Assembly (NCBI GenBank): GCA_948144175.1
Contig: CANXME010002003.1
Span: 569,684 to 633,683, forward strand
Length of the DNA stretch: 64,000 nt
From: Closterium sp. NIES-65
Taxonomy: Eukaryota > Streptophyta > Zygnematophyceae > Desmidiales > Closteriaceae
Reading direction: 5' to 3'
In this document: one piece after another, positions 26,573 through 61,847 of the stretch
How positions within the stretch are numbered: the first letter of the stretch is position 1
Layout of the letters: each line of letters opens with the position of its first letter
Made by a program: the position numbers and the translations under genes
Notes under the pieces: generated by a model
Told to the model about the DNA's origin: nothing
Seen by the model: the letters and a program-made list of their open reading frames with translations, nothing else
The model's database searches: none

Positions 26573-26899
26573 TGTTACGGGTGCAATGAATCGAGGTAGC
26601 GAGAATTGCACTAAGGTGTCAAACGAGTACAAAATGTGAGCGAAGGCATGAGCGAACATTTATACGCGAAACATGCAAAACGGTAACGCGGTGCGTGCGA
26701 GCTTGCTAGTGCTACGCTGGAGCGAGGCTCGGGCTAGTCCCGAAGCGTAGGCCGATACGGCCATGCCAGCAGTGCGAGGTTTGGTAAAACAGTGCGCGCG
26801 AAGTCGGCGAAGTTCCGTTAGCAGTAACGGGCGAACAATCGGCTGTTGCTGTACGCGATGTAGTCGGCTCCGTAAGGAATGCCGAGAAAATTCCTTACA
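26573..26899 (-). repeat. 3' LTR of the chromovirus
   Basis: 327 bp, TG...CA, identical by eye to the 5' LTR. Its inner edge adjoins a G-rich polypurine tract on the minus strand (26900-26915). Confidence 0.95.
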
Positions 26900-26915
26900 C
26901 TACCCCCCCCCCTCA
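26900..26915 (-). promoter_or_regulatory. Polypurine tract
   Basis: On the minus strand a run of about ten G preceded by A/G lies directly upstream of the 3' LTR, the expected plus-strand primer for reverse transcription. Confidence 0.75.
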
Positions 26916-26929
26916 AGAAGCCCCCTCCG

Positions 26930-29900
26930 CTACGCGAGTGCGTGTATATCGCGGAATCCCCGGCTCCTCAGGTACACTTGCAGGGCAGGGTGATTTTCGA
27001 TGTTGCTCAGGGGCACCCAGCTATCTTCAGTTGGCGTGCGGTCTTTCCAGCGAACGAGGAATTCAATCCTCCTGATTCCCGTGGGGTGGCGGATCCGATG
27101 GCTCAGAATTTTTTCGGGCTCGATGATCGGCTCTGATGCAGGGCGAGTCATTGATTGTGGCCGGTGACGCGGCAGTTGACTTGTGGTCGGGATGTATGGG
27201 CGAAGTAGGCTGACGTGGAACGAAGGGCTGATGTACCAGTCGGTTGGCAACAGTAGGTGTGCGGTGACGGGTGTGATCATGTGACTGATTTGGAATGGTC
27301 CACAGTAGCGTGGTCGTAATTTTGGCACGTCGGGCAGTCGCAGATTTTGCGTGTCGAGTAGCACGTAATCTCCAGATTGATACGTGACGGGGCGGCGGTG
27401 GCGATCAGCGTTGCGCTTAGCGATGACGTTGGCCTTTTTTATTGCTTCGGCGGCTCTGGCGCGGGCAGCTTGCAGGATTTCGGCGAATTGTTGTGCGCGT
27501 GGCGTTGGGTTGTCCGGACTCGGCGTCATGGGCACTGCGGGGTTCTGCCCATAGTTCAGGTAGAACGGGGACTGCTGCGTCGTGGCTGATGTGGCGTTGT
27601 TGTACGCGAACTCGATCAGCGGCAGCTGCTGCTCCCAGGTCGTGGGGTCGTCGCACGTGGCACGAATCAACTGCTCCACCGTCTGATTCGTCCGCTCCGT
27701 TTGGCCGTCGGTCTCGGGGTGGTACGACGAACTGAACTGTAGCCTGGTCCCGAACTGCTCCCAGAGGTTCTTCCAGAAGTTGCTGGTAAATTTCGTGTCC
27801 CTGTCGCTGATAATTGCTGCTGGTATCCTGTGCAGGCGAACAACGGCTGCGATGAACAGGCGAGCGGTCTCCTCGGCTGAGATCGACTTTTTGCACGCAG
27901 CGAAGTGTGCCATCTTCGTCAGCCTATCCACGACGACCATCACCGCGTCGTTACCCCCAGGGTTCGATGGTAACCCTGTGACGAAGTCCATGGTTACTTG
28001 CTGCCAGGCGCGTTCGGGCGGTGGGATCGGCTGCAATTGGCCCGCCTTCCGCTTCCTTGAACTCTTCATCACCTGACAGGTCGGGCACGAGCCCACGTGC
28101 TGCTGTACGTCGGTCAACAGCTCCGGCCAGTAATAGTACCGCTGCAGTTGCTGTCGCGTTTTTTCTACCCCGAAATGTCCCGAGGTAATCCCGTCGTGTG
28201 CCTCCTGTAGTAGCAGATCCCTCAGTAGTGAGTACGCGGGTACCCAAATGCGGTTGGTGCCTGCTTTTACGTAATAGACTCCTTTTGCTTCTGCCAGTTG
28301 CTGTGAATTTCCGGTCGTGAAAAATGGGTCGGTGCGGTATCCATGGGTGAATAGGCCAGTTAAAAGCGGGTTGGTCTGGGCGAGTAGGATGGCATGGAGT
28401 TGGGCGGTAGGGCGGGTGAGAGCGTCGGCGATGTTGGATTCACCCTTTTTGTACGTAACGGTGTAGTGAAAATTGGACTCGAGATAGTCCAACCAGCGAA
28501 TCTGTCGTGGGTTGAGATTCGGTTGGGCGCGAAGATACTGTAGCGAGCGGTGGTCTGTCCGTATTGTCACGTCGGCGCCAGTCAGGTAACATCGCCAAAC
28601 TTTGAACGCGTGCACGATCGCTAGCATCTCGCGGTCGTGTATCGGGTAGTTACGTTCGGGCGGGTGTAACTTGCGGGACTCGTATGCGATTGGCTGGAGG
28701 CCGTTCCCGAAATCCTGCAACAGTACTGCTCCCACAGCGATGTCACTTGCGTCGGTGACGAGCTCAAACGGACGGTGGGGATCTGCAATGTGAAGGACGG
28801 GTGGGGAGCACAAAATATTTTTGAGGGCCGAGAAGGCAGCTTGCTCTTTCTCCCCCCACGTGTACTCAACCCCCTTCCTCAGCAGGTCAGTCAACGGGGC
28901 AGTCAGCTTCGCCATGTCGGGGACGAACCGGCGCACGTAGTTGACGAACCCCAGGAAACTCTGCAACTCGGTCAAGTTGGTCGGCGCGTGCCAAGCCTGA
29001 ATCGTCGCAATTTTCTTCGGGTCTATTTCCACTCCTGCAGCTGAAATAACATGTTCCAAAAACTCCAGGCGGTCCTGTAAAAACTCACACTTAGATGCTT
29101 TGGTCAGTAGGCGGTTCTCACTCAGGATTTTAAAAACTGCTTCGATGTCTTGTAAGTGCTGTGCTCTGTCAGGGCTGTAAATCAGTATGTCGTCCAGATA
29201 AACGATGACGCACTTATATAAAAGCGGGCGGAATGCTTCGTTCATGGTCATTTGGAAAGTGGCGGGGGCGTTGGTCAGTCCGAATGGCATGACGGTGTAT
29301 TCGAAGGATCCGTAGCGTGTTCGGAATGCGGTTTTAGGGCAGTCGGGTGGGTTGACGCGGATTTGGTGGTAGCCTCCCCGGAGGTCGATTTTCGAGAAAA
29401 CCCGGGCTGTGCGCAGTTGGTCGATAAGTTCGTCGGCTCGTGGGATGGGGTAACGGGATTTGATAGTAACCGTGTTCAGTGCCCTGTAGTCGATGCACAT
29501 GCGAAAACCCCCGTCCTTTTTCGGTGTGAACAGTATTGGTGCGGCGAAGGGCGACGAACTAGGGCGAATGAATTCCTTTTCGAGCAGGTAATCGAGCTGC
29601 TTCCTTAGTTCGTCTAGTTCGGGTTGGGTCAGTCGGAACTGTCGCTGTACTGTTGGCTGTGCCCCCGGTTCCAGTTCTATCCTGTGATCGTGCGGTCGCT
29701 GAGGTGGCAGTCCCGTCGGTAAGTCATCCGGGAAAATGTCACTGTACTCTTTTAACAGTGCCGCCAGGTCACTCGGTACGTCGGTCAGCAGTTTCTGTAA
29801 ATCGCCCCCCTTGTCTGCTGCCTCGGCTTCCCGAATGTCAACCGCGTACACGTCAGCTCCGGCCGCAACAGCGCGTTTCATCGTGATCGCGTTGACACGC

Positions 29901-30433
29901 ACCGACGAAGACTCAGGCGAGCCCCAGCGAGGTAAGGCGATGTTGTTACCGTTTACTCGCACGGTGCAGTCACCCGTCGTCCAGTCAATTCGCGGATTGT
30001 GTCGTCGCAGCCAATCACGCCCGAGTAAAATGTCGGTTCCGTCGAGGGTCGTTGCGAGCATTTCCTGACTAAACGTGAAGTTACCCCCGCATCGAATCCG
30101 AACTCGGTCTACGCGTTCCCGTATTGCCAGCGGCGTGCCGTCGACCAGTCGTGCGTCGATCTCAGGTAAGCATCGGTCCAGTGGCAGTCGCAGTTTGCGT
30201 GCTGTAGCTGTGTTAATGAGGCTGTGGCTGGCTCCCCCGTCTACGAAGATTTTAACTAAGTCCGTCCCAATTTTCCCACTGAGCAGTATAGGGCTATCTA
30301 CCGTGGTACCCTCCTTATTCGGCCGGGTGTGGTCGATTGCGTGAACCGGCACAATCACTCGGTGAGGGTCGGTTGGGTCGGGCGAGCGGCGTGACCTGTC
30401 AGTAGAGGGCCCGTCTGCTACTAACTTCCAGCG
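26930..30433 (-). CDS. pol: Pol polyprotein: protease, RT, RNase H, integrase, chromodomain
   Basis: Domains in order: protease FVDGGASHSLI (DGGA in place of the usual DSGA); reverse transcriptase with MPFGLTNAPATFQ and catalytic YLDDILIYS; RNase H TDASDIAVGAVLLQ; integrase HHCC finger (HDGITSGHFGVEKT ... CPTCQ) and a DDE core opening TMDFVTGLP; and a C-terminal chromodomain (EFLVRWKDRTPTEDSWVP). No stop or frameshift is seen. The pol frame has no ATG near its start and is open upstream through the gag end, so it is expected to be made by -1 frameshifting at 30433-30439; the start given is the first base after the slip. Confidence 0.95.
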   Translation of the reverse strand, partial: RWKLVADGPSTDRSRRSPDPTDPHRVIVPVHAIDHTRPNKEGTTVDSPILLSGKIGTDLVKIFVDGGASHSLINTATARKLRLPLDRCLPEIDARLVDGTPLAIRERVDRVRIRCGGNFTFSQEMLATTLDGTDILLGRDWLRRHNPRIDWTTGDCTVRVNGNNIALPRWGSPESSSVRVNAITMKRAVAAGADVYAVDIREAEAADKGGDLQKLLTDVPSDLAALLKEYSDIFPDDLPTGLPPQRPHDHRIELEPGAQPTVQRQFRLTQPELDELRKQLDYLLEKEFIRPSSSPFAAPILFTPKKDGGFRMCIDYRALNTVTIKSRYPIPRADELIDQLRTARVFSKIDLRGGYHQIRVNPPDCPKTAFRTRYGSFEYTVMPFGLTNAPATFQMTMNEAFRPLLYKCVIVYLDDILIYSPDRAQHLQDIEAVFKILSENRLLTKASKCEFLQDRLEFLEHVISAAGVEIDPKKIATIQAWHAPTNLTELQSFLGFVNYVRRFVPDMAKLTAPLTDLLRKGVEYTWGEKEQAAFSALKNILCSPPVLHIADPHRPFELVTDASDIAVGAVLLQDFGNGLQPIAYESRKLHPPERNYPIHDREMLAIVHAFKVWRCYLTGADVTIRTDHRSLQYLRAQPNLNPRQIRWLDYLESNFHYTVTYKKGESNIADALTRPTAQLHAILLAQTNPLLTGLFTHGYRTDPFFTTGNSQQLAEAKGVYYVKAGTNRIWVPAYSLLRDLLLQEAHDGITSGHFGVEKTRQQLQRYYYWPELLTDVQQHVGSCPTCQVMKSSRKRKAGQLQPIPPPERAWQQVTMDFVTGLPSNPGGNDAVMVVVDRLTKMAHFAACKKSISAEETARLFIAAVVRLHRIPAAIISDRDTKFTSNFWKNLWEQFGTRLQFSSSYHPETDGQTERTNQTVEQLIRATCDDPTTWEQQLPLIEFAYNNATSATTQQSPFYLNYGQNPAVPMTPSPDNPTPRAQQFAEILQAARARAAEAIKKANVIAKRNADRHRRPVTYQSGDYVLLDTQNLRLPDVPKLRPRYCGPFQISHMITPVTAHLLLPTDWYISPSFHVSLLRPYIPTTSQLPRHRPQSMTRPASEPIIEPEKILSHRIRHPTGIRRIEFLVRWKDRTPTEDSWVPLSNIENHPALQVYLRSRGFRDIHALA

Positions 30434-30439
30434 TTTCCC
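30398..30439 (-). promoter_or_regulatory. -1 ribosomal frameshift signal between gag and pol
   Basis: On the minus strand the heptamer GGGAAAC (30439-30433) lies in the X XXY YYZ phase of gag, four codons before its stop. It is followed by a 7-nt spacer and an 8-bp stem (30425-30418 with 30405-30398, one G-U pair, 12-nt loop). After a -1 shift the pol frame is open. This is the standard layout of a programmed -1 site; function is inferred. Confidence 0.75.
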
Positions 30440-31578
30440 TGCTGCTTGGTCTGTGTCTGCTGCTCAGCTTCCCCCTTTCCCTTAGTGTTTTCCGGGCATT
30501 CGCTCTTGCGATGTCCCGGCCGATTGCACGCAAAGCAGCGCCCTTTGAACGGTGCGGCAGTGGCATTTGCGGCGACGGCGCGTATCGTGGCGCTTTCGTT
30601 CGTCCCACGAGGCCGATGTCCCCAGGTGTTGTTTCCGTAGGACCCCGGTCTCGGTCGGCGAAAGAAGTCGAGCTTCTCCGCCATAGCGAGAATTTCCTGA
30701 AACTCAGTGACGCCGCGAAGCTGGATTTCCTGAGCGATGTCCTGCTTCAGGCCGCCGATGTAGCGGTCGATGCGTTCGCTCTCATGCATGTAGCCCACCT
30801 GCTCGCATAGCGCCAGAAATCCGCTCGTGTAATCCTGGATGGAACCGAGTTGGCGCCAAGTGCGGAGCTTCTGTCGCGCCGAGATCGAGGCCGCGATTGG
30901 CTCAAATCGAGGGCGCAGACCTGCGCACCACGCGTCCCACGTGCGATACTGGGGCACCTCCACGAAATACGACGGCGCCCAGGGTCCGGTTTGTCCTTCC
31001 CGTGTCGGTAGTGTCGCGTAGTCGGTCGGCTTCGTGACGATGACGCGCCACCAGTCCATGGCGGGTCCTCGCAGCAACGACACGGCGTATCGAATCTTCG
31101 CCGAGTCCTCCGAGACGTAGTTGGCGTCGAAGAAAACATTCATTGTGAATAACCACGCCTGAACGGTAGGACCACCCCGTTGACTCGGGTCAAAGCATGG
31201 CGGGCGCTGCGGCTTCAGCGGCATCGGTGACGGCAGTCCCGAATCGTGGGTTGGTGCCGAAATCGTGACGCGAGGCTGACTTGGGGCCGCAGGCGTCGCT
31301 CTGGGGTGTGTCGTGCCGTGGTCGTCGTCTCCGTCGGGGCGGACGACGCCATCACTGGCCGCGCTCGCGGGTTGCCCCACACTCCCGTGTTGTGATGTTG
31401 AGGGTGCGGGTTGGATCGGAGTGCCAGGTGCTTGAGATTGTGCTCTCAGGAGGTCATTTTGCAGTGATGAGCGTTCTGCCGTCAATGCCGCGATTTCCTC
31501 GGAGCTTTCGTGCAGTTGTCGCAGCAGATCGTTCAAACGCTCCTGCGTGAGAGTGGTGACGTCGATGTTTTCGGCCAT
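30421..31578 (-). CDS. gag: Gag polyprotein
   Basis: 385 codons from ATG (MAENID...). A capsid-like helical region with the conserved WWRVIVTKPTDY and YIGGLKQDIAQEIQ segments is followed by a single CCHC zinc knuckle, CFACNRPGHRKSEC. It ends in a Gln-rich tail at the frameshift site. Intact. Confidence 0.93.
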   Translation of the reverse strand: MAENIDVTTLTQERLNDLLRQLHESSEEIAALTAERSSLQNDLLRAQSQAPGTPIQPAPSTSQHGSVGQPASAASDGVVRPDGDDDHGTTHPRATPAAPSQPRVTISAPTHDSGLPSPMPLKPQRPPCFDPSQRGGPTVQAWLFTMNVFFDANYVSEDSAKIRYAVSLLRGPAMDWWRVIVTKPTDYATLPTREGQTGPWAPSYFVEVPQYRTWDAWCAGLRPRFEPIAASISARQKLRTWRQLGSIQDYTSGFLALCEQVGYMHESERIDRYIGGLKQDIAQEIQLRGVTEFQEILAMAEKLDFFRRPRPGSYGNNTWGHRPRGTNESATIRAVAANATAAPFKGRCFACNRPGHRKSECPENTKGKGEAEQQTQTKQQGNAGS

Positions 31579-31742
31579 GACGAAGGGCGTCGGCTCGTCT
31601 TAGTCTAGGCGCAGTCGTGGCTGCACGCGTTTACGAGAGAACGCGAGGACAGCGGCTCCTAGGGGCTAAGGTGCGTGAGTCCCTTCGAGTGAAAAATCAA
31701 AAGTTGATTTCCTGGTGTGCGGAGATGCGCGGTCCGAAAGAA

Positions 31743-31759
31743 AGGGGCTCTGATACCAA
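31743..31759 (-). promoter_or_regulatory. Primer-binding site (initiator tRNA-Met)
   Basis: Minus-strand TTGGTATCAGAGCCCC lies just inside the 5' LTR and is complementary to the 3' end of plant initiator tRNA-Met, the usual primer. Confidence 0.9.
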
Positions 31760-31760
31760 G

Positions 31761-32087
31761 TGTTACGGGTGCAATGAATCGAGGTAGCGAGAATTGCACT
31801 AAGGTGTCAAACGAGTACAAAATGTGAGCGAAGGCATGAGCGAACATTTATACGCGAAACATGCAAAACGGTAACGCGGTGCGTGCGAGCTTGCTAGTGC
31901 TACGCTGGAGCGAGGCTCGGGCTAGTCCCGAAGCGTAGGCCGATACGGCCATGCCAGCAGTGCGAGGTTTGGTAAAACAGTGCGCGCGAAGTCGGCGAAG
32001 TTCCGTTAGCAGTAACGGGCGAACAATCGGCTGTTGCTGTACGCGATGTAGTCGGCTCCGTAAGGAATGCCGAGAAAATTCCTTACA
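31761..32087 (-). repeat. 5' LTR of the chromovirus
   Basis: 327 bp, TG...CA, identical by eye to the LTR at 26573-26899. Confidence 0.95.
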
Positions 32088-52037: not shown

Positions 52038-52255
52038 TGTCAAAATATGTTATTCATATTTATATAATTGTCTGTAGTGTTAGTGTAGTTATGTTTCCCG
52101 TTTGGTGGTGCACCTCATTACCCTAGTTCTTGCCTATATCTTTGTACCTTTGCTCTTTATTGAACCCTTCTTCACTCTCGACTTTTCAACTTGCTCGATA
52201 CTCAACTCACTCGACCTACTAGCTATGGCTCCTTAGCCTTGCTAGATCTTTCACA
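52038..52255 (+). repeat. 5' LTR of the outer non-autonomous element
   Basis: 218 bp, TGTCAAAATATG...TTTCACA. Its first 135 bp match 53348-53482 with one noticed difference, and its last 90 bp match 61761-61847 with a few. Confidence 0.92.
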
Positions 52256-53347
52256 TGGTATCAGAGCGACCAAGATCCTGACCTGTGGGCCCACCCTAAA
52301 GCTTCCGCTGCTACTCTGTGTTCGGCACGCCCCGTGGCGTGCCCCTTATCCTTTTTTTCTTAGCGGCCCCGTTGCCGCCCTTTCTGGCCCCTCGCGGCCC
52401 CTTCGCGGCCCTCCCGCCGCCCTTCACTGCGGCCCCGTCGCCCTTCGCTGCGGCCCCGCCGCCCTCAGCTGCGGCCCCGTCGCCGCCCTCACTTGCGGCC
52501 CGTCGCCGCCCTCATCTGCGGCCCCGTCGCCGCCCTCACCTGCGGCCCGTCGCCGCCCTCACCTGCGGCTCGTCGCCGCCCTCACCTGCGGCCCCAACGC
52601 CGCCCTCAGCTTCGGCCCAGTCGCCACCCTCACTTGCGGCCCGTCGCCGCCCTCGGTTGCGGCCCCGCCGCCCTCACCTGCGGCCCCCGTCGCCTACCTA
52701 TGGCCCCGCCCACTTGCGGCCCCGACCCCGCCCCGGCCATGCCCCGTCGCCAGCTGCGGCACACCGGGGGCACGTGCACCGCCCCCCCCCCCCCCCCTTT
52801 TCCCGTCACCTGTCGAGGCGACCTGAGGGGGCCGCGGCGACCTGGAAGGGGGGGGGCAGGCGTCGCCCCCTCTGCCGCCTGCTTTGGCGCCCGGGGAGGC
52901 CGTGCGTCGCCCCCCCCCCCCCCCCCCCTCCCCTCTCCTCCTCCTTTTGCTCCCTCTGCTGCAGCTGCCGCTGGGGGGGGGGAGGGTGTGAGGGTGTGGG
53001 GGAGCCCGGAGAGGGACTGGGGGTGGCAGGTGTGGGGATGATGGGTGATGTGTGGTCTCCCCTTCCCATCCTCCTCCGTTCGCCCCCCCTTTGCTGCTCC
53101 TGCAGCAGTGTGGGGGGGGAGGGGGAGGGGGAGGGGGAGGGTGAGGGGATGTAGGGGGTGACCAACCAGAGTCTACCACCTCCTCTCCTCTCTCTCCCTC
53201 TATCTCTCCTCTCTCCCTTCTGTTCTCTGTTTTCTGCAATGGTTGTCACTGCTCCTGCCTACTGCTGCTACTTCAGCTGCACTCTGCATGGTGTACCCTC
53301 TTTAGGGGGCGTTACTACACTCACACCTGCAAACAATTATGGGGGTG
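52256..53347 (+). other. Internal region of the non-autonomous element
   Basis: PBS at 52256-52271 (complementary to initiator tRNA-Met). From 52360 to 52720 it consists of degenerate repeats of gccgccctcacctgcggccc, and then poly-C/poly-G tracts at 52782-52798, 52911-52928 and 53107-53145. Open frames here are Pro/Ala-rich by-products of the repeats; no protein domain is seen. Confidence 0.8.
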
Positions 53348-53482
53348 TGTCGAAATATGTTATTCATATTTATATAATTGTCTGTAGTGTTAGTGTAGTT
53401 ATGTTTCCCGTTTGGTGGTGCACCTCATTACCCTAGTTCTTGCCTATATCTTTGTACCTTTGCTCTTTATTGAACCCTTCTT
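53348..53482 (+). repeat. 3' LTR of the outer element, left part
   Basis: 135 bp matching the first part of the LTR at 52038, ending at the nested insertion. The last four bases, tctt, are repeated at 61761-61764 on the other side of the nest, consistent with a 4-bp target duplication. Confidence 0.9.
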
Positions 53483-53815
53483 TGTCACCGAATATGCACG
53501 GTTGTGCATATAAGGTGCCAGTATGATTAAGGTGTAGGACGGGTGTAGTGATGTGTTGTATTTGGTGTATGCAGCCTCAAGGATAAGTAGGTGGGGGGCT
53601 GGGAAATTGACGCGGAGTCGGTAGGAGATCACCAAGGGGTGAAATCCTCGCGACGAATGGGAACAAACCCACCCAGGCCCGAGCCGCACATTGAGAAATG
53701 CACGGCTCGAGCTAGGGACAGGTAAGTTCACTCTCACACACACACACAATGCTTTCCGTTTGTTATCCTTTCGTATAGTGGATTCTGGTTACCTCTAGCC
53801 TTGCGTTTGGTGACA
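53483..53815 (+). repeat. Left LTR of the methyltransferase-encoding element
   Basis: 333 bp with 7-bp terminal inverted repeats TGTCACC/GGTGACA. It contains an (AC)n run near 53735. Confidence 0.88.
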
Positions 53816-53893
53816 CCCACTAAGGGAGGACCATTGAGGTGAGAGTCTCGTCACTTTCATAACAAACGGAAAGCATTCTGCGTGCGTGCAAGC

Positions 53894-56800
53894 ATGGACG
53901 GGTACGACGTGCGTTATGGCCGGACGTATAGTCGGCATGAGCAGGATCGCTCACGGCGCGGACACTCCCGCGAGCGTGGGCGGTCGCTGGAGCGGTCTCC
54001 GCGGAGGCCAGATCGATCGCCGCGAAGGCCTGCCTTTCGGGCGGATCAGGTGCCTCTCGGGCATGAACGCTGAGAGGAAGGATCTGCACAAGGAAGAGCC
54101 GGCGGATCGGAATCGGCCATGGTGAGGAGTGATCCGTGGCGGACGGAAACGCGCCATGGGGGTGGCGATCTGGGATATCGCCAGGAGACGGGAGCGTATC
54201 GCTCGCCGGATGCAAGTTATCGCCGTCGCAAAGATCGGAGGCGCGGGCGAGGCTTGGAAGGACTGTTTTCGGGCCGAGAGGGAGACCTCAACGCTGGCGG
54301 AGTAGAAGAAAGCGACGCGGCGGACACCTCGCAGGAGTCCGAGCACGGCGATGCGGCGGAGAACGGCGCCGACGGCCGGAAGGAGGACGTGAGCAAGCAG
54401 CGCGACGTGCCTGCAGAAGCAACAGAAGCAGATCTCGCGCAGGCGAGCGTGGCGGCAGAGACAAGCGCGGTGGAGGCGGACGGAACGAGTGGTGCTCAAA
54501 ACCCGCCGCGCAACGGAGACGAGCGTGGCAGCAAGAGGCGTAGCAGCAGCTCGCGCTCTCCAGATTTGCGTCAGCAATGCGACGCGGGATGCGGCGACGG
54601 CGTGCGCTCGCCAGATCACCGGCGCACTTGTGATGGGGGGGCGCGGCGACGGCATGCGCTCGCCAGATCCGCGGCGCACTCGTGATGGGGGACGCGGCGA
54701 CGGCGTGCGCTCGCCAGATCCGCGGCGCACTCGTGATGGGGGACGCGGCGACGGCATGCGCTCGACAGATCCGCGGCGCACTCGTGATGGGGGACGCGGC
54801 GATGGTGTGCGCTCGCCAAATCCGCGACGCACTCGTGATGGGGGAAGCGGCGACGGCGTGCGCTCGCCAGATCCGCGGCGCACTCGTGATGGGGGACGCG
54901 GCGACGGCGTGCGCTCGCCAGATCCGCGGCGCACTCGTGATGGGGGACGCGGGGACGGCATGCGCTCGCCAGATCCGTGGCCGCTGCATGAGAGGAGACA
55001 CGGAAGTGGATACCACTCGCCAGATTCGAGGCAACACCGGGACAGTGGGCGCGGGGGCAGCACGCACTCACTAGATCCGCGGAGAAAGCGCGACGGGAGA
55101 AGCAGAGGGGATTCGCGCTTGCCAGAGCCTCGTTACTCGCGTGATGAGAGACGCGGAGGAGGCAATCGCTCGCCGGACATGCAACGGTACCGTGGAGAGA
55201 AGTGGGGAGACAAGGCGCACTCGCCCGACTGGCGCCTGCGTCATGGGGAAAGCCGGGGAGGCGGATATCGCTCACCGCATCGGCGGCAGAGCAGGGATGG
55301 GAGGCGCGGTGGTGGGTCTCGATCGCCTGGCCGGTATTGGCAGCACGACGGAAGATGTGCCGGACAGGGAGGGCGGGAGCAACATGGCGATAGAGAAGAA
55401 AGCAGTGGGCTGGTGCACAGCCTGGAGCGAGCCAAGGAAGCAAGGGAGGGCCTACAGCGGGCAAAAGGAAGGGGAGCATCAGGGAGATCGGTGGGAGGGC
55501 CGAGCGAGGCATGGGGAGAAGGAAGGGGAGGCACGGCCGTGGGCATGAGGGTGGAGGTGCCTACACGCTTCTCAGGAGATCAGCACACGGGGCCCACGCT
55601 GAAGAACTACCTCATGCAAGTGGGCAATGTGCGGTACCGATGTGAGAGGAGCGGCATGGACTCAGTAGACTTTTTCCTGAGCCTGCCGAACACACTGGAA
55701 GGGGAGGCAGAGACATTGTACAGGATGAAGATGGATGAGCTGTTGGAGAAGGCAGGGAGGTATGGGGAAGACCCCACGGAGGCATTCCTAAGACGGCTGA
55801 AACGGCAGTTCCCAGGCCACACCGCGGAGAAGATAAGAGAGTTTCAGGACTTCAGGAAGGGGCGGGGCGAGTCACTACTCACCTACTACAACCGATTGGT
55901 TAACCTGGCAGAGGATGTGAGTTGCGCGGACACGGCCCTGCTCGTGAGTAAGTTTCTGGACGGCCTGGAGGGTACTTTGGGAAGCGGGCTGCGGCTGAAA
56001 GTGTACGAGAGGGGGGCTGACGTGACGCTTGATGAAGTATTCGAGCTAGCAGAGAAGATGGAGATGGCCCAGAGGAAGCTCGAAGCCTACCGGCAACGCC
56101 CAGTGGAGCGAGGCAGAGGACCTACGTGGGCCGCAGCCATGATACCAGAAGAAAAGGAAAGAGGAGGGGGAAGAGGGGATAACAGGACTGACATACGGAC
56201 GTGCCACCGATGCGGGCAGCCAGGGCACTTGCGCAGAGACTACAAGAACTGCGACTCCTGTGGTAAGCCCGGACACCGGCGGCGGGAATGCCCAACGGCG
56301 CCAAAGTGTGACATCTGTGGGAAGGGAGGGCATGCAACGAGGGAGTGTTATCAGCGGGAGGGAGCAGCGAGGAGGACACCAGAGGACCTGGAAAGGCAGA
56401 TTGGCAAGCTACAGGCTCAGCTGCAGGCAATGGGACCACGACGCGAGGCAGAAGCGGGGATGTACGCTAAGAAAGAAAAGGAGGAGGATGTAGAGCAGGA
56501 TGAAGAAGCTGCATTCATGAGCTGGGCAGGAAGAGCGGAGGATGAGGTGGAACACGAGGAGCAGCCAGCATACATGGCATGGAGAGGAAGGGAGGAGATG
56601 GGGCTGCGCAGCGGGGGAAGGGATGCACGGAAGGAGCAGGTGAGGAAGGAACGAGAGAAAGGACAGAAACCGGAAGCGAATAAAGAGAGGTGCACAGCAG
56701 CACGGCACCCTCGGGAGCGGCTGGCGTGCCAGACTTCCGTGCTGCTGATACAAGGAGGCGCGCTGTCGGTGGAAGGGGAGAAGGCCAAGACGGCTATCAT

Positions 56801-57971
56801 AGACACTGGCGCGCAGAGCGTGATATTAGGGAAGGGGATGGCCGAGAAGCTGGGACTGTGGGCACCGGACAGACATGTAGTGAAGGGGATGCTGGTGATG
56901 ACAGCAGAGGGAGGAGAGTCAAAGTGGATGCCATGTACAAGGACTCCAATTGAACTGACGGTGCTCAAAGGAGAGAAGCACGAAACGCCGGTCAGGATCA
57001 GGTGCGGGATCTCAGAATCTGAAGATTTCGACGTTTTGGTGGGCACGGAGATGATCTTTGCACTGGGCATGACCATCTGCTTCTGGAGGGAGACGGTGGA
57101 ATTCAGGACCAGGTGGTGGAGGAAGGGTGAGCCACTGGGACAGCTGCCGGTGCAGTTCGTCAAGACAGAGCCGAAGCGGGCCTACAGGGCGGATCTGAAG
57201 GAAATGACAGCGAAGCAGGGGGCACAGGAGAGCACGACAAGCAAGGGACAGGGCAGAGAGCTGAGGATGCGCTTCATGGACGAGCCTAGCCAGCAGACTG
57301 ATTGGCAGCAACCTATCCGCCTGGTGGAACTATTTGGGGGTATAGGGGCGGGGTTGGCAGCAGTGGTGCGGAACGGGATCGCAATGAAGCAGTGGATTTA
57401 CGTAGAGAAGGCGGCAAAAGCAAGGAAAATGGCGGAACATCACGCATGGCAGCTGCACCGCGAGTTCCCGGAGCTGTTGAAGGAAGAAGTGATCAAGGCA
57501 GCAATGAGTAGAGGAGTGCACGATGTACGGGCCATCACAGAGGCTGAGGTGGCGAGCTGGGGGCACGTGGACTTGTTGGTGGCGGGATGGGAATGCCAAG
57601 GGGTATCATGGGCAGGGAAGGGCAAGGGTGAGCAAGACCTACGGACACAACTGATGGAGGACTTGTTCAAAATTCTGGAGTGGCTGCAGGCTCGACAAAG
57701 CAGGGTGGCCTACCTGCTGGAGCATTTAGACATGGAAGGAGATGTGCGCGAGCCCATACGAGTAGTAAGGGAGCGAGTGACCAGACAGGTGGGAAAGGGA
57801 GTGAGCTGCGACGCGACACGGATGGGAGCTTACGCACACAGGCTCAGGATGTACTGGCAGAATGTGGTGCCAGCGGAAGACCTGCAGAAGGAGATAGAGG
57901 GGGTACGGAGAGCAGGGGGGGCGGAAGCTGAGCGATATACTGGAGCCTGGGCGAACGCCAGCACCAGTGAA
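53894..57971 (+). pseudogene. Gag-protease-methyltransferase part of the polyprotein (frame-disrupted)
   Basis: The N-terminal part is Arg/Ser-rich with 17-residue repeats. A gag capsid-like region (VEVPTRFSGDQHTGPTLKNY ... about 55546-56090) is followed by three zinc knuckles (56202-56357): CHRCGQPGHLRRDY lacks the last Cys, while CDSCGKPGHRRREC and CDICGKGGHATREC are complete. The protease motif IIDTGAQSVILG is at about 56798-56833. The methyltransferase domain then starts (57321). Frame changes are seen near 54073-54120, at a G7 run at 54635-54641, and at a second G7 run at 57915-57921, after which the methyltransferase continues in another frame. Confidence 0.85.
54633..54989 (+). repeat. 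51-bp coding minisatellite in gag (17-residue repeat)
   Basis: Seven tandem units of 51 bp, each encoding DGGRGDGVRSPDPRRTR or a near variant. The same RSPD motif, spaced more loosely, continues to about 55340. The composition (Arg, Asp, Ser-Pro) resembles SR/RD-type disordered RNA-binding tails. Confidence 0.92.
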
Positions 57972-58270
57972 TAAGAAGAGCTACAGCCGACATTATCCGT
58001 GCAATCAAGTGGGGCAGGAGAGGCAAGCACTGCCTACGCTAGTGTCATATGAGGGGGCAGCAGGGTACCAGATGGATGGGAAGCAGCCAGGCCCAGGACT
58101 AGTGCTCGACCACGGGAAGGGAAGGTGGGAGGAGCCCACGGCCCTGGAGAGGGAGCTGGCTATGGGGTACAAGGAGAACGCTACAGCAGCCCCTGGTGTC
58201 ACTGAACAGGAACGGAGGCGGGCAATGGGGAACGCAATGGATGGGTACGTGATGAGGTGGTTGGTGCAGT
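57315..58270 (+). pseudogene. C5-cytosine DNA methyltransferase domain inside the retrotransposon
   Basis: Motif I LVELFGGIGAGL (57321-57356, AdoMet binding). Motif IV region DLLVAGWECQGVSWAGKGKG with the catalytic Cys codon at 57594-57596 (the usual Pro before it is Glu). Motif VI YLLEHLD with its Glu at 57720-57722 (usual ENV is EHL). Motif VIII AYAHRLRMYWQN (57828-57863). After the frame change, a target-recognition segment and motifs IX/X follow: ALPTLVSY, ERELAMGY and ERRRAMGNAMD (58147-58242). The order is that of the cytosine-5 methyltransferase family. It sits between protease and reverse transcriptase in the polyprotein. Catalytic residues are kept; activity is unproven, and this copy is broken by the shift at 57915-57921. 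Confidence 0.88.
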
Positions 58271-60741
58271 GGATGTGGAGAGAGACAGTGCTGCGCTGGG
58301 GACTGAAGGAGGGAGAGAACACAGTAGCAACGGTGAGGCAGGGGGCATGGGCCTGCTTGCCGAAAGCAGAGCATGAGTGGAAGATAGGTGAGAGCATGAG
58401 TGAGGGAGGGAAGGCAGCCATGCTGGCACTGCTGGTTAAGCACAGGAGGGGCTTCGCTTTCACCCTGCAGGAGTTGGGGAAGTGCAAGATCAAGGAGATG
58501 GCATTGAAGCTGAGCAGCGATGAGCCGGTGTTCCACCGCCGAAGAAAGATGCCGCCTGGGGATGAGGCGATCTGCAGGGAGAAAATAAAGGAGTTACTGG
58601 AAGCTGGATTGATCAGAAGGTCAGAGTCAGAGTACGCGACCCCGACGGTAGTGGCAGCCAGGAAGGATTTGACAGGAGAGGTGCTGAGCCGCAGGATGTG
58701 CGGCGATTACAGAGATCTTAATAAGATCACCGTGCCGGACAGGTACCCCATGCCGATGGCGGAGGAGCTCTTTGACAAGATGGCCGACGGGGTGTACTTC
58801 ACGACGCTGGACCTGCGCCAGGGATTCAATCAAATAAAAATCAGGGAAGAAGATGTGAAGAAGACAGCCTTCCACGGACCGGACGGGCTGTACGAGTGGC
58901 TATACATGCCCTTCGGCCTACGGAACGCCTCGGCGGTGTTTCAACGAGTCATGGACGCGGTGCTGCGGGGAATTGAACATGCAGCATGCTACATCGATGA
59001 TGTAGTCATCTTCAGCTTGACCGAGCAGCAGCATCTGGAGGACGTGGAGAGGACCCTGAGTGCAATAGAGGAGGCAGGGCTCACATGCCATCCCAACAAA
59101 TGCAGGTGGGGGGAACGGACGGTGCAGTACCTGGGGTATGAGGTGAAAGGGGGACAGATCGGGATCCAGCAAGCAAAGGTACAGGTGCTGGACAGGCTGA
59201 GGGAACCTAGAGACAAGTCAGGGCTGCGCGCGGTCTTGGGCTTCCTCAGCTACTACAGGCGCTTTGTGCCTAACTTCAGTAAGAGGGCGGCGGTGCTGAA
59301 TGGGATACTGCGTGAGGACAAGGCATGGGAGTGGGGAGAGCAGCAGAGGGTAGCACTCCAAGACCTCATGACAGCCGTAAAGACGGCGACAGTGCTACGG
59401 CTGCCAACAGCAGACCAACCTTTCGTCCTCTACACCGATTGGAGCAGCCAGGGGATGGGGGCAATACTGTGCCAGGGGGTGGAGGGAGTGGAGAAGGTGG
59501 TAGCCTACGCCAGCAGGAGCTGCAACCCCGCAGAGGCGCAGTATAGCTAATACATAGGGGAGGGACTGGCGGCAGTGTGGGCAGTCGGGCACTTCAGGGT
59601 GTACCTGCAGGGCCGCGAGTTCACCTTGGTCACTGATCATCAGCCCCTCACGTGGCTGATGACCACACCAGGGCTGACGGGAAGGAACGCCAGGTGGGCC
59701 GTGAAGCTGCAGGAATATGATTTCCAGATCAGGCACAGGCCGGGGAAGACGCTGCAGCACGTAGACGGTCTCTCCCGTAATCCACCACTGCTGGAAACAG
59801 GACAAGGAACACAGGGGACGGAGGGGACAGAGCAGGAGCCAGCGCACACCCTGATCATGCTGGCGAGAGAAGTGGAACAAGTCGGTGCCAAGGGGAGTAA
59901 GGGGCCAGCGGACATATGGCAGGATGAGAAGGCGATGAAGTGGGTGAGGGGAGAAACAGAGGAAGACGAGGCAGTGTCTGACAGAGTGAGAGCACGAGGA
60001 CACCACTACAGGTGGTACCAGCAGCAGCTGCAGGTCAAGACAGAGGACGGTTGGAAGCTGGTGCCAGCGCCACAGGACCGTGAAGCAATAATCAAAGAGG
60101 TACACACTAAGCTGGGACACTTCGGACATGAGAGGACCGTACATCTGCTGAAGACGGGCTGGTGGTGGGAAGGGATGCGCAGACAGGTGAAGGAGTGGGT
60201 AGAGGGGTGTGAGGCATGTCAGAGGAGCAAAGCCAACCTGACGCAGGCCAAGGCAGAGCTGAACTCACTGCCAATCTGCGGGCTAGGGTTCCGATGGTCC
60301 TTAGACCTGGCAGGGGAGCTGCCCCTAAGCAGGAGTGGGAACCAGTACATCGTGTTCATGGTGGAGCATGTGAGCAAGTGGCTGGAGGTGAGAGCCATCC
60401 CCAGCAAGAGCTCAAGGCACATTGCAGCAGCTTTCAAGGCACAGGTCGTGTGTAGGTTTGGGGCATATGGGGAGGTGCTTACAGACCAGGAAACGGAGTT
60501 CCAGGGGGAGTTCAAGAAGTTGCTGGCGGAGTCGGGCATCACCCATCGGAAGACCTCTCGCTACCACCCGCAGAGCGACGGGCTGACTGAGCGAGCACTG
60601 CAGACCTTCAAGCGAGGGCTCCGGGCCTATGGGGAGCAGCGGAAGAGGGACTGGGATGAGGAGCTGGACTGGATCGCAGCAGGGTATAGATTCGGGAAGC
60701 AGGCAGCATTGAAGGATCATTCCCCATACAGCCTGCTATAA
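57967..60741 (+). pseudogene. pol: Reverse transcriptase, RNase H and integrase part of the polyprotein
   Basis: Continues from the methyltransferase C terminus into reverse transcriptase (MCGDYRDLNKITVPDRYP, MPFGLRNASAVFQ, catalytic YIDDVVIFS near 58990-59016). RNase H is interrupted by TAA at 59548-59550, after LYTDWSSQGMGAILCQ. The same frame resumes with YIGEGLAAVWAVGHF and integrase: HHCC finger (LGHFGHERTVHLL ... CEACQRSK), core SLDLAGELP, and TDQETEFQG with YHPQSDGLTERA. It ends at TAA near 60739-60741 by a frameshift just before the expected GRDPILP segment. Confidence 0.88.
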
Positions 60742-61220
60742 CGGACGGGACCCAATCCTGCCTGTGGGGGCACCACGGGTGCTGACAGACACAGTGACAG
60801 CGGGCACAATCAAGAACTGGGTAGCCCTGTCCGAGGTGAGGGCGCGGTACATGCGTTACATGATGCCAGCCGCGCTGGAGAACCTGCGCACCGCACAGCT
60901 CAGAGATGCCAGGCGATATGAACAAAGGCAGCAAAAGGGGGAGGGCCGAGCGGCAAGGGCCATCAGCGAAGGACAGGAAAGTGTATCTGAAGAAGGCCAA
61001 GCAGGACACCCTAGATGTGGGATTGGGGACAGTGCGCTGGAAAGTCAAGGAGGTGCGCCCATCAGGAGTGCTGGTCTTGGAAAATGACGCGGGGGCGCAG
61101 CTGCGGGAACATCAGACGAACACGGCGGTGATAAGGGGAACAGGGCCTCAGCGTACTGGTCCTGTGACCCGCGCTCAAGCTGCTCGAGCACGGGCACAGG
61201 AGGGGGCAGAGAGTGGCTGA
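60742..61220 (+). pseudogene. C-terminal tail of the polyprotein, frameshifted
   Basis: The frame +1 to the integrase frame reads GRDPILPVGAPRVLTD onward to about 60940. A third frame then gives DRKVYLKKAKQDTLDVG and KVKEVRPSGVLVLEND, the usual C-terminal region of this type of polyprotein, ending TGA at 61218-61220. Two further single-base disruptions are implied. Confidence 0.75.
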
Positions 61221-61760
61221 GGCAATAGAGGGAACGAAGGAGAAGACAGAGCAGGAGAATCAAGGCAAAGAAGAGTGCAGCCGCAACTCCGACAGCTGTC
61301 ACCGAATATGCACGGTTGTGCATATAAGGTGCCAGTTTGATTAAGGTGTAGGACGGGTGTAGTGATGTGTTGTATTTGGTGTATGCAGCCTCAAGGATAA
61401 GTAGGTGGGGGGCTGGGAAATTGACGCGGAGCCGGTAGGAGATCACCAAGGGGTGAAATCCTCGCGACCAATGGGAAACAAACCCACCCAGGCCCGAGCC
61501 GCACATTGAGAAATGCACGGCTTGAGCTAGGGACAGGTAAGTTCACTCTCACACACACACACAATGCTTTCCGTTTGTTATCCTTTCGTATAGTGGATTC
61601 TGGTTACCTCTAGCCTTGCGTTTGGTGACACCCACTCAGGGAGGACCATTGAGGTGAGAGTCTCGTCACTTTCTGAGAGTGGCTGAGGCAATAGAGGGAA
61701 CGAAGGAGAAGACAGAGCAGGAGAATCAAGGCAAAGAAGAGTGCAGCCGCAACTCCGACA
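61209..61760 (+). repeat. 86-bp direct duplication flanking the right LTR
   Basis: Positions 61209-61294 and 61675-61760 are identical 86-bp sequences (gagagtggctgaggcaatag ... ctccgaca). Between them lie the right LTR (61297-61630) and 43 bp matching the leader that follows the left LTR (53816-53858). This is what remains if a tandem second copy lost nearly all its interior and its own right LTR. Confidence 0.9.
61297..61630 (+). repeat. Right LTR of the methyltransferase-encoding element
   Basis: 334 bp, TGTCACC...GGTGACA, about five differences from the left LTR. Confidence 0.88.
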
Positions 61761-61847
61761 TCTTCACTCTCGACTTTTCAACTTGCTCGATAATCAATTC
61801 ACTCGACCTACTAGCTACGGCTCCTTAGCCTTGCTAGATCTTTCACA
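61761..61847 (+). repeat. 3' LTR of the outer element, right part
   Basis: tcttcactctcgacttttca ... tttcaca matches the end of the 52038-52255 LTR and is followed by the target duplication caacc. Confidence 0.9.

Follow-up and report, generated by a model that had tools for sequence, protein, structure and literature searches.

A gypsy-type retrotransposon with a DNMT3-like domain in Closterium and its possible integration through end-joined cDNA

Background

How does a gypsy-type retrotransposon that begins with one repeat and ends with another enter the genome, and what use might it have for a DNA methyltransferase of its own? Both questions are raised by a locus in a 64,000-nucleotide stretch of the genome of Closterium sp. 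NIES-65 (hereafter, the window; it is located on contig C1705, and the genome-wide searches covered the 874-Mb assembly). Positions 53483-61760 of the window are occupied by a Ty3/gypsy-type element with a DNMT3-like cytosine-5 methyltransferase domain (hereafter, DNMT) between the protease and the reverse transcriptase (RT). This copy has A1 as its left terminus and B2 as its right one, instead of two equal long terminal repeats (LTRs), the full order of repeats being A1-coding-B1-gc-A2-B2, with B2 ending at 61760. We consider it rather probable that this element, with its gag-protease-DNMT3-RT-RNase H-integrase polyprotein, primes its own reverse transcription and integrates by way of an end-joined cDNA that is cut at an internal palindrome.

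Two different ends and two kinds of joint

The repeats and the adjacent signals of the window copy are the following.

52038..52255, +, unoccupied paralogue of the insertion site, found by sequence comparison
53479..53482, +, left target-site duplication TCTT, identical to 61761-61764; its unoccupied paralogue is the one at 52038-52255
53483..53858, +, A1, left terminal repeat (TGTCACC...), 376 nt, 98.4% identical to A2
53748..53766, +, 19-nt arm complementary to the primer-binding site (hairpin z = -6.4)
53859..53877, +, putative primer-binding site of the self-complementary type, without a TGG start, abutting A1 and covarying among subfamilies
61198..61213, +, putative polypurine tract AGGAGGGGGCAGAGAG at the start of B1, suggested by the starts of B2 and by L024, which carries bases of the tract
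61209..61294, +, B1, from repeat comparison
61291..61300, +, B1-A2 joint, palindrome GACA-GC-TGTC, constant across copies and the proposed cutting site of the integrase
61297..61674, +, A2, from repeat comparison
61675..61760, +, B2, right end of the element (...CTCCGACA), from repeat comparison
61761..61764, +, right target-site duplication TCTT, equal to the left one

The same A1-coding-B1-A2-B2 order recurs in other fetched copies. The 52 right ends that were read represent 39 insertions, as judged by the right flank; L001-L008, short pieces of copies that were fetched again, were excluded before the counts, the left-end pieces L048-L066 and L084 were used for left flanks only, and the right ends of L014, L028, L039, L040 and L082 are absent from the joint reading. 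The full structure, A-int-B-A-B (int being the part between the repeats), is present in 31 of the 39, so that the equal LTRs at both outer ends that characterize Ty3/gypsy elements are replaced by A on the left and B on the right. Four further insertions have B directly after the coding part (L012, with an unknown left end, L043, L067/L068 and L042), and four consist of A-B only (L069, L071, L080/L081 and L070).

Exact 4-bp target duplications lie outside A1 and B2 in 28 of the 30 insertions with a known left flank, within the 4-6 bp that are typical of Ty3/gypsy elements; the script had no left flank for nine insertions, among them a tandem dimer on contig C1923. The copies with B after the coding part include L043 with TAAC, L067/L068 with GAGT and L042 with no duplication, and among the A-B units L069, L071 and L080/L081 have duplications and L070 has none. 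In the window itself, the target sequence is present twice within 52038-53482, 1.3 kb apart and with a GC-rich tract in between. The window also holds a conventional gypsy element at 26573-32087, with minus-strand open reading frames (ORFs), plain LTRs with TG..CA ends and a 5-bp duplication (TAAAC), in contrast to the A and B ends and the 4-bp duplication of the DNMT element.

The two internal joints behave differently. The B1-A2 joint reads CTCCGACA-GC-TGTC in all 31 full units, whereas manual reading of the A2-B2 joint yielded 18 types in the 31 insertions: between ...TTTC and GAGAG we found AT six times, ATT five times, AAT three times, ATC and T twice each, and 13 singletons. Singletons include losses of bases from A (L019, L026) and from B (L018, L022, L045). 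The joint of L016 is plain, that of L024 carries seven extra bases of the purine tract, and those of L075 (ATAA) and L078/L079 (ATAAT) contain bases that fit the primer site. Because the A2-B2 joint varies between insertions and the B1-A2 joint is constant, the former appears to form afresh with every transposition and the latter to be inherited through the RNA. A pattern search for the B end of one subfamily, blind to the DNMT, returned 53 sites, namely, 23 pairs at distances of 438-470 bases (some of them duplicates of one insertion) and seven singles.

Priming of reverse transcription

The primer-binding site adjoining A1 lacks the initial TGG that would match a tRNA 3' end. Instead, it pairs over 19 nt with an arm inside A in the window copy, and the RNA hairpin predicted for the arm and the primer site has a z score of -6.4. 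Both sides of this pairing have changed together in two subfamilies, to ATACC/GGTAT in L023, L025 and L026 and to AAACAGAAAG/CTTTCTGTTT in L027 and L028. In addition, the short insertion L069 (G000:C676:786447-787107), bordered by CCTC at either end, breaks off A precisely where the arm ends and continues with the remaining part of A (U5) in reverse complement; this fold-back resembles the product of an arm elongated with the primer site as template. The covariation and the apparent footprint in L069 support self-priming of the element.

A possible route through joined cDNA ends

Because the primer site (from 53859) adjoins the end of A and the purine tract (61198-61213) marks the start of B, the LTR of the cDNA can be read as B+A. 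Reverse transcription would be primed by the sequence carried in A at the site directly after A1, the plus strand would start at the purine tract before B1, and the resulting cDNA would have the form [B-A]-int-[B-A]. Some of the A2-B2 joints contain primer-site or purine-tract bases, that is, bases of the very outer ends that an LTR of this composition would leave, which is why we propose that the two cDNA ends, the end of A and the start of B, are united by end joining, in the simplest form into a circle. The integrase would then cut the palindrome GACAGCTGTC (61291-61300) after each CA and leave 5' overhangs of two bases, as integrase does at retroviral ends, and insertion with a 4-bp duplication would yield A1-int-B1-A2-x-B2. 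Under this scheme, the outer ends of the inserted element would be the two sides of the internal B-gc-A site, and the A2-B2 joint would mark the place where the cDNA ends had met.

A precedent for this cutting chemistry comes from HIV-1: in vitro, its integrase cuts both strands of the palindromic junction between two LTRs after CA (PMC1905944). The 2-LTR circles of HIV had long been regarded as dead ends; PCR data, however, suggest that they can be linearized and integrated once an inhibitor is removed (PMC4372172). A limited literature search found no element that employs the cutting of joined cDNA as its normal route. We would give an even chance to the broader proposition that end-joined, 2-LTR-like cDNA, cut at a palindrome inherited within the element's own LTR, is the normal substrate of integration, convergent with the DIRS elements, and that the methyltransferase goes with this intermediate, joined or circular, which it would mark or protect.

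Several observations weigh against this scheme. The circle and the RNA are both deduced from integrated copies, and end joining between molecules would produce the same joints. The A-int-B copies (L043, L067/L068) fit one-LTR circles and also later recombination between B1 and B2, and some of the differences among the A2-B2 joints may be later point mutations. The script that classified the copies sorted them by the joint GACA-GC-TGTC; the four A-B units that fail this rule show plain flanks and no altered B1. With regard to priming, the pairing contains a mismatch in L016, L017, L019, L020, L021 and L025, and no site was obtained for L012 and L024; furthermore, the covariation is not proof of selection, since the primer site and the arm might equally be kept matched by the copying steps of reverse transcription. 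Finally, L042 and L070 lack matching duplications; they lie on the same contig in opposite orientation, with the reciprocal flanks TGCC/GCGG and GCGG/TGCC, and a later inversion between the two copies apparently explains the exchange. The surrounding region (G000:C1731, approximately 1625727-1634875; L042, L061, L070), with its two copies in opposite orientation and swapped duplications, shows the trace of an inversion.

Other origins of the structure can be envisaged. The second B could have been added by template switching into B1 during reverse transcription, so that a linear cDNA already ending in the start of A and the end of B would integrate conventionally. Such ends would suit ordinary integrase action, and some of the joints (L026, L019) show microhomology; we nevertheless regard this explanation as unlikely, given that the joints bear the bases of the two outer ends of a normal cDNA and that the start of B2 ranges from seven bases before B (L024) to the last 16 nt of B (L018). 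We regard it as slightly less likely still that the cDNA ends are joined between molecules, into concatemers within which the integrase cuts two internal sites, because the joining within one molecule is simpler. The tandem dimer on C1923 could be taken as a concatemer of this kind, except that its middle joint is a plain B-gc-A rather than an end-joined one. This dimer, A-int-B-A-int-B-A-B, is found at G000:C1923, approximately 2155895-2172179 (L011, L014), between the flanks GAGGAG and GGAGGAG, which share GGAG. Integration by a tyrosine recombinase, as in the DIRS elements, which share the repeat order A-coding-B-A-B, can practically be dismissed and was rejected: the integrase is of the rve type, Pfam detected no recombinase domain in the ORF pieces that were scanned, and 28 of 30 insertions have 4-bp duplications. 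The preferred reading is still that of a cDNA joined at its ends and cut at the internal palindrome.

The methyltransferase domain

The protein-coding features of the window copy are listed below.

54534..55298, +, 51-bp tandem repeat encoding an RS/RD-rich gag segment (sequence repeat)
56196..56350, +, gag zinc knuckles, best at 56196-56240, end approximate (Pfam, residues 602-616 of the ORF from 54393)
56766..56924, +, aspartic protease (Pfam, residues 792-844 of the ORF from 54393)
57315..58270, +, DNMT3-like cytosine-5 methyltransferase domain, frame broken in the window copy (Pfam, alignments, PDB profile match)
57591..57599, +, motif IV ECQ, with the catalytic Cys codon at 57594-57596
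57898..57974, +, overlap of two open frames, the frame change of the window copy; other copies are uninterrupted here
58693..59145, +, reverse transcriptase, RVT_1 (Pfam)
59332..59718, +, RNase H, broken by the stop at 59548-59550 in the window copy (Pfam, ORFs)
60073..60570, +, integrase, H2C2 zinc domain and rve core (Pfam)

The first-pass annotation, made from the letters of the DNA, had read this locus as a Ty3/gypsy polyprotein with a DNMT inserted between protease and RT and an SR/RD-repeat gag, and had proposed a family of such carriers. The Pfam order (zinc knuckles, protease, DNA_methylase, RVT_1, RNase H, H2C2, rve), which includes the protease-RT-RNase H-integrase arrangement diagnostic of Ty3/gypsy Pol, bears out the first of these statements, and the RS/RD-rich segment within the 51-bp repeat agrees with the second; the copy number of this repeat seems to vary among copies, the distance from A1 to the DNMT being different. 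The window copy itself is damaged, by a frame shift inside the DNMT at about 57.9 kb and by the stop in RNase H. Its match to DNA_methylase (PF00145) is slightly below the cut-off of 22 (E = 1.6e-4, 21.7 bits), that of L011 is above it (24.6 bits), and all nine members of an alignment of relatives match the profile. The two ways in which the initial reading could have failed, lack of such a match and absence of the domain from the other copies, thus do not hold, because PF00145 is matched by other copies and relatives and the domain was found in each of the 40 copies scored (out of 444 genome candidates; these were found through the domain itself). Hence a one-off chimera was rejected, also in view of eight further stretches picked by the B end, blind to the DNMT, six of which contain the domain at the expected place. 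The exceptions are L090, probably a member of a group in which the DNMT and B1 are about 4 kb farther apart (compare L028), and L092, which lacks the domain for no apparent reason.

When the nine-member profile was compared with the PDB, the best match was DNMT3A (4e-17), followed by DNMT3B (1.9e-14), the chain 4onj 'DNA methyltransferase' (3.5e-9), DRM2 (2.9e-6), HhaI (5.4e-6) and DNMT2 (0.14), so among the solved C5-methyltransferases DNMT3 is the closest to the domain of the element. The PC of motif IV and the ENV of motif VI that are expected of DNMT3 are absent; in their place we find GWECQ and LLEHL, with the catalytic Cys and the motif VI Glu retained, as had been noticed at first sight. 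The description of ECQ as altered needs a correction: a regular-expression search for motif IV in 139 proteins of the clade found ECQ in 100, PCQ in 14 and DCQ in one, with 24 unmatched, some of these being fragments. The corresponding pattern for motif VI also caught EWL and was set aside as unreliable. Given its predominance, ECQ is a trait that is usual in the clade rather than a sign of decay, which was rejected as its cause also on account of the low ratio of nonsynonymous to synonymous substitution rates (dN/dS) of the DNMT. A single origin of ECQ is unsupported, with six changes on the tree between GWECQ and GWPCQ.

The DNMT domain is under purifying selection: between three subfamilies, its dN/dS is 0.064-0.102, compared to 0.033-0.051 for RT and 0.040-0.049 for integrase (pairs with dS > 0.05). 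The frame of the DNMT is open in 13 of the 15 copies given to this test, which omitted five of the 20 full loci (L009, L020, L021, L024, L026). The genome-wide check for intact copies that had been suggested turned up a single ORF of 2389-2492 aa in six of 20 fetched loci (L011, L012, L013, L016, L017 and L025); the flanks of L013 are identical to those of the window copy, and L014 is truncated by the edge of the fetched stretch. Judging from A1 and A2, which show zero mismatches in six of the 15 copies compared (window included), the family is young or active.

The substitution of Glu for Pro beside the catalytic Cys might have abolished cytosine methylation, the domain being kept as a nucleic-acid-binding or structural part; its dN/dS is about twice that of RT, GWECQ occurs in most of the matched clade proteins and alternates with GWPCQ, and the enzyme of Klebsormidium nitens gave no methylation in yeast, a result described as inconclusive (PMC5890265), so that ECQ may not methylate. 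We nonetheless consider the loss of activity rather doubtful: the catalytic Cys is invariant in the nine-row alignment, the motif VI Glu is present in 36 of 36 rows, the Cys and the HR.R of motif VIII are each found in at least 90% of these rows, and dN/dS is low in absolute terms. The element probably carries its own DNA-methylating enzyme. In ten subfamily-1 copies, transition differences per available site are highest at CG (445/572, against 292/901 for CHG and 396/1995 for CHH; the counts were summed over all pairs of copies and so are not independent), which suggests CG methylation of the integrated copies, whether of host or of element origin. That the DNMT acts on the DNA of the joined intermediate or on the new copy is a tentative guess, in which we would lean toward the marking or protection of joined cDNA; mimicry of host marks or a tuning of the element's own silencing, as proposed in the first-pass annotation, slower transposition and a non-catalytic part may be other candidates.

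Distribution of relatives

The 13 best protein matches of the window DNMT all come from Closterium strains, and the matches listed include NIES-53, -54, -65, -67 and Naga37s-1. Also among the matches listed are the liverwort Calypogeia fissa, in which the protease is followed by the DNMT within one protein, short matches in Sphagnum magellanicum and S. troendelagicum, chlorophytes (Cymbomonas, Chromochloris, Monoraphidium) and many unnamed metagenome proteins; no protein named Klebsormidium is among them, and the distribution is a lower bound. No relatives were detected in viral_contigs or genome_contigs at the sensitivity of those scans. In P0014-P0019 (metagenomes and one contig of a MAG), the DNMT occurs together with integrase and PHD domains; in P0016 the order is RNase H, DNMT, integrase, and the C end carries a PHD finger. 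In the phylogenetic tree, the nine Closterium rows are set apart with support of 100/99; 11 of the 34 inner branches are well supported, and the tree is compatible with one DNMT capture or with several. Should the liverwort and Sphagnum proteins prove to be parts of elements of this kind, the range of gypsy elements with a DNMT would extend to land plants.

Comparison with known systems

The first-pass annotation stated that DNMT genes had been captured by gypsy-type elements in Klebsormidium and in dinoflagellates. This is accurate for the former only: the dinoflagellate carriers are of the LINE and DIRS types, and the Klebsormidium carrier alone is a gypsy element (PMC5890265). KnitGypsy-Dnmt3 of K. 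nitens has a Dnmt3-type domain in the gypsy Pol, with Ka/Ks < 0.2, and a DIRS-like repeat order (PMC5890265), and the Closterium family resembles it in carrying such a domain under purifying selection inside Pol and in the A-coding-B-A-B repeats. Compared by description, the Closterium family differs in its host, a zygnematophyte that is unmentioned in the main text of that report, and in the joints, target duplications, self-priming and ECQ described here; our literature search found no further paper naming KnitGypsy or SymbioDIRS. The carrier type is therefore already known, Closterium adds a member, and the joint-based route of integration is the new part. SymbioDIRS-Dnmt3 likewise has A-coding-B-A-B repeats and a Dnmt3 in Pol but possesses a tyrosine recombinase (PMC5890265), unlike the Closterium element with its rve integrase and 4-bp duplication.

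In the complementarity of the primer site to its own leader, which is seen at the sequence level with the RNA deduced from DNA, the element resembles Tf1/Sushi and the plant Tcn1 elements. Passages of PMC6317226 on self-priming plant gypsy elements name only the Tcn1 chromoviruses; unlike these and Tf1/Sushi, the Closterium element has no chromodomain that Pfam could find in the five ORF pieces of the window copy. The proposed cut after CA in a palindrome at joined cDNA ends parallels the cleavage of HIV-1 2-LTR circles (PMC1905944, PMC4372172); in HIV, however, joint and palindrome are one and the same, and the route serves as a reserve at most, whereas the Closterium site would be inherited inside the LTR and used in nearly every insertion read. 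A further parallel is offered by IS911-type minicircles, in which a DDE enzyme likewise acts on abutted ends with a short spacer, though in a bacterial DNA transposon without reverse transcription.

The DIRS-like repeats of a gypsy element were named, unexplained, in a figure legend of the 2018 report (PMC5890265), and the joints read here offer a concrete, cheaply testable explanation of them. Whether the capture of a methyltransferase is tied to cDNA with joined ends also becomes testable in algae; if it is, the methyltransferase cargo of the DIRS-type elements and of the gypsy-type element of Closterium would go with a joined or circular DNA intermediate.

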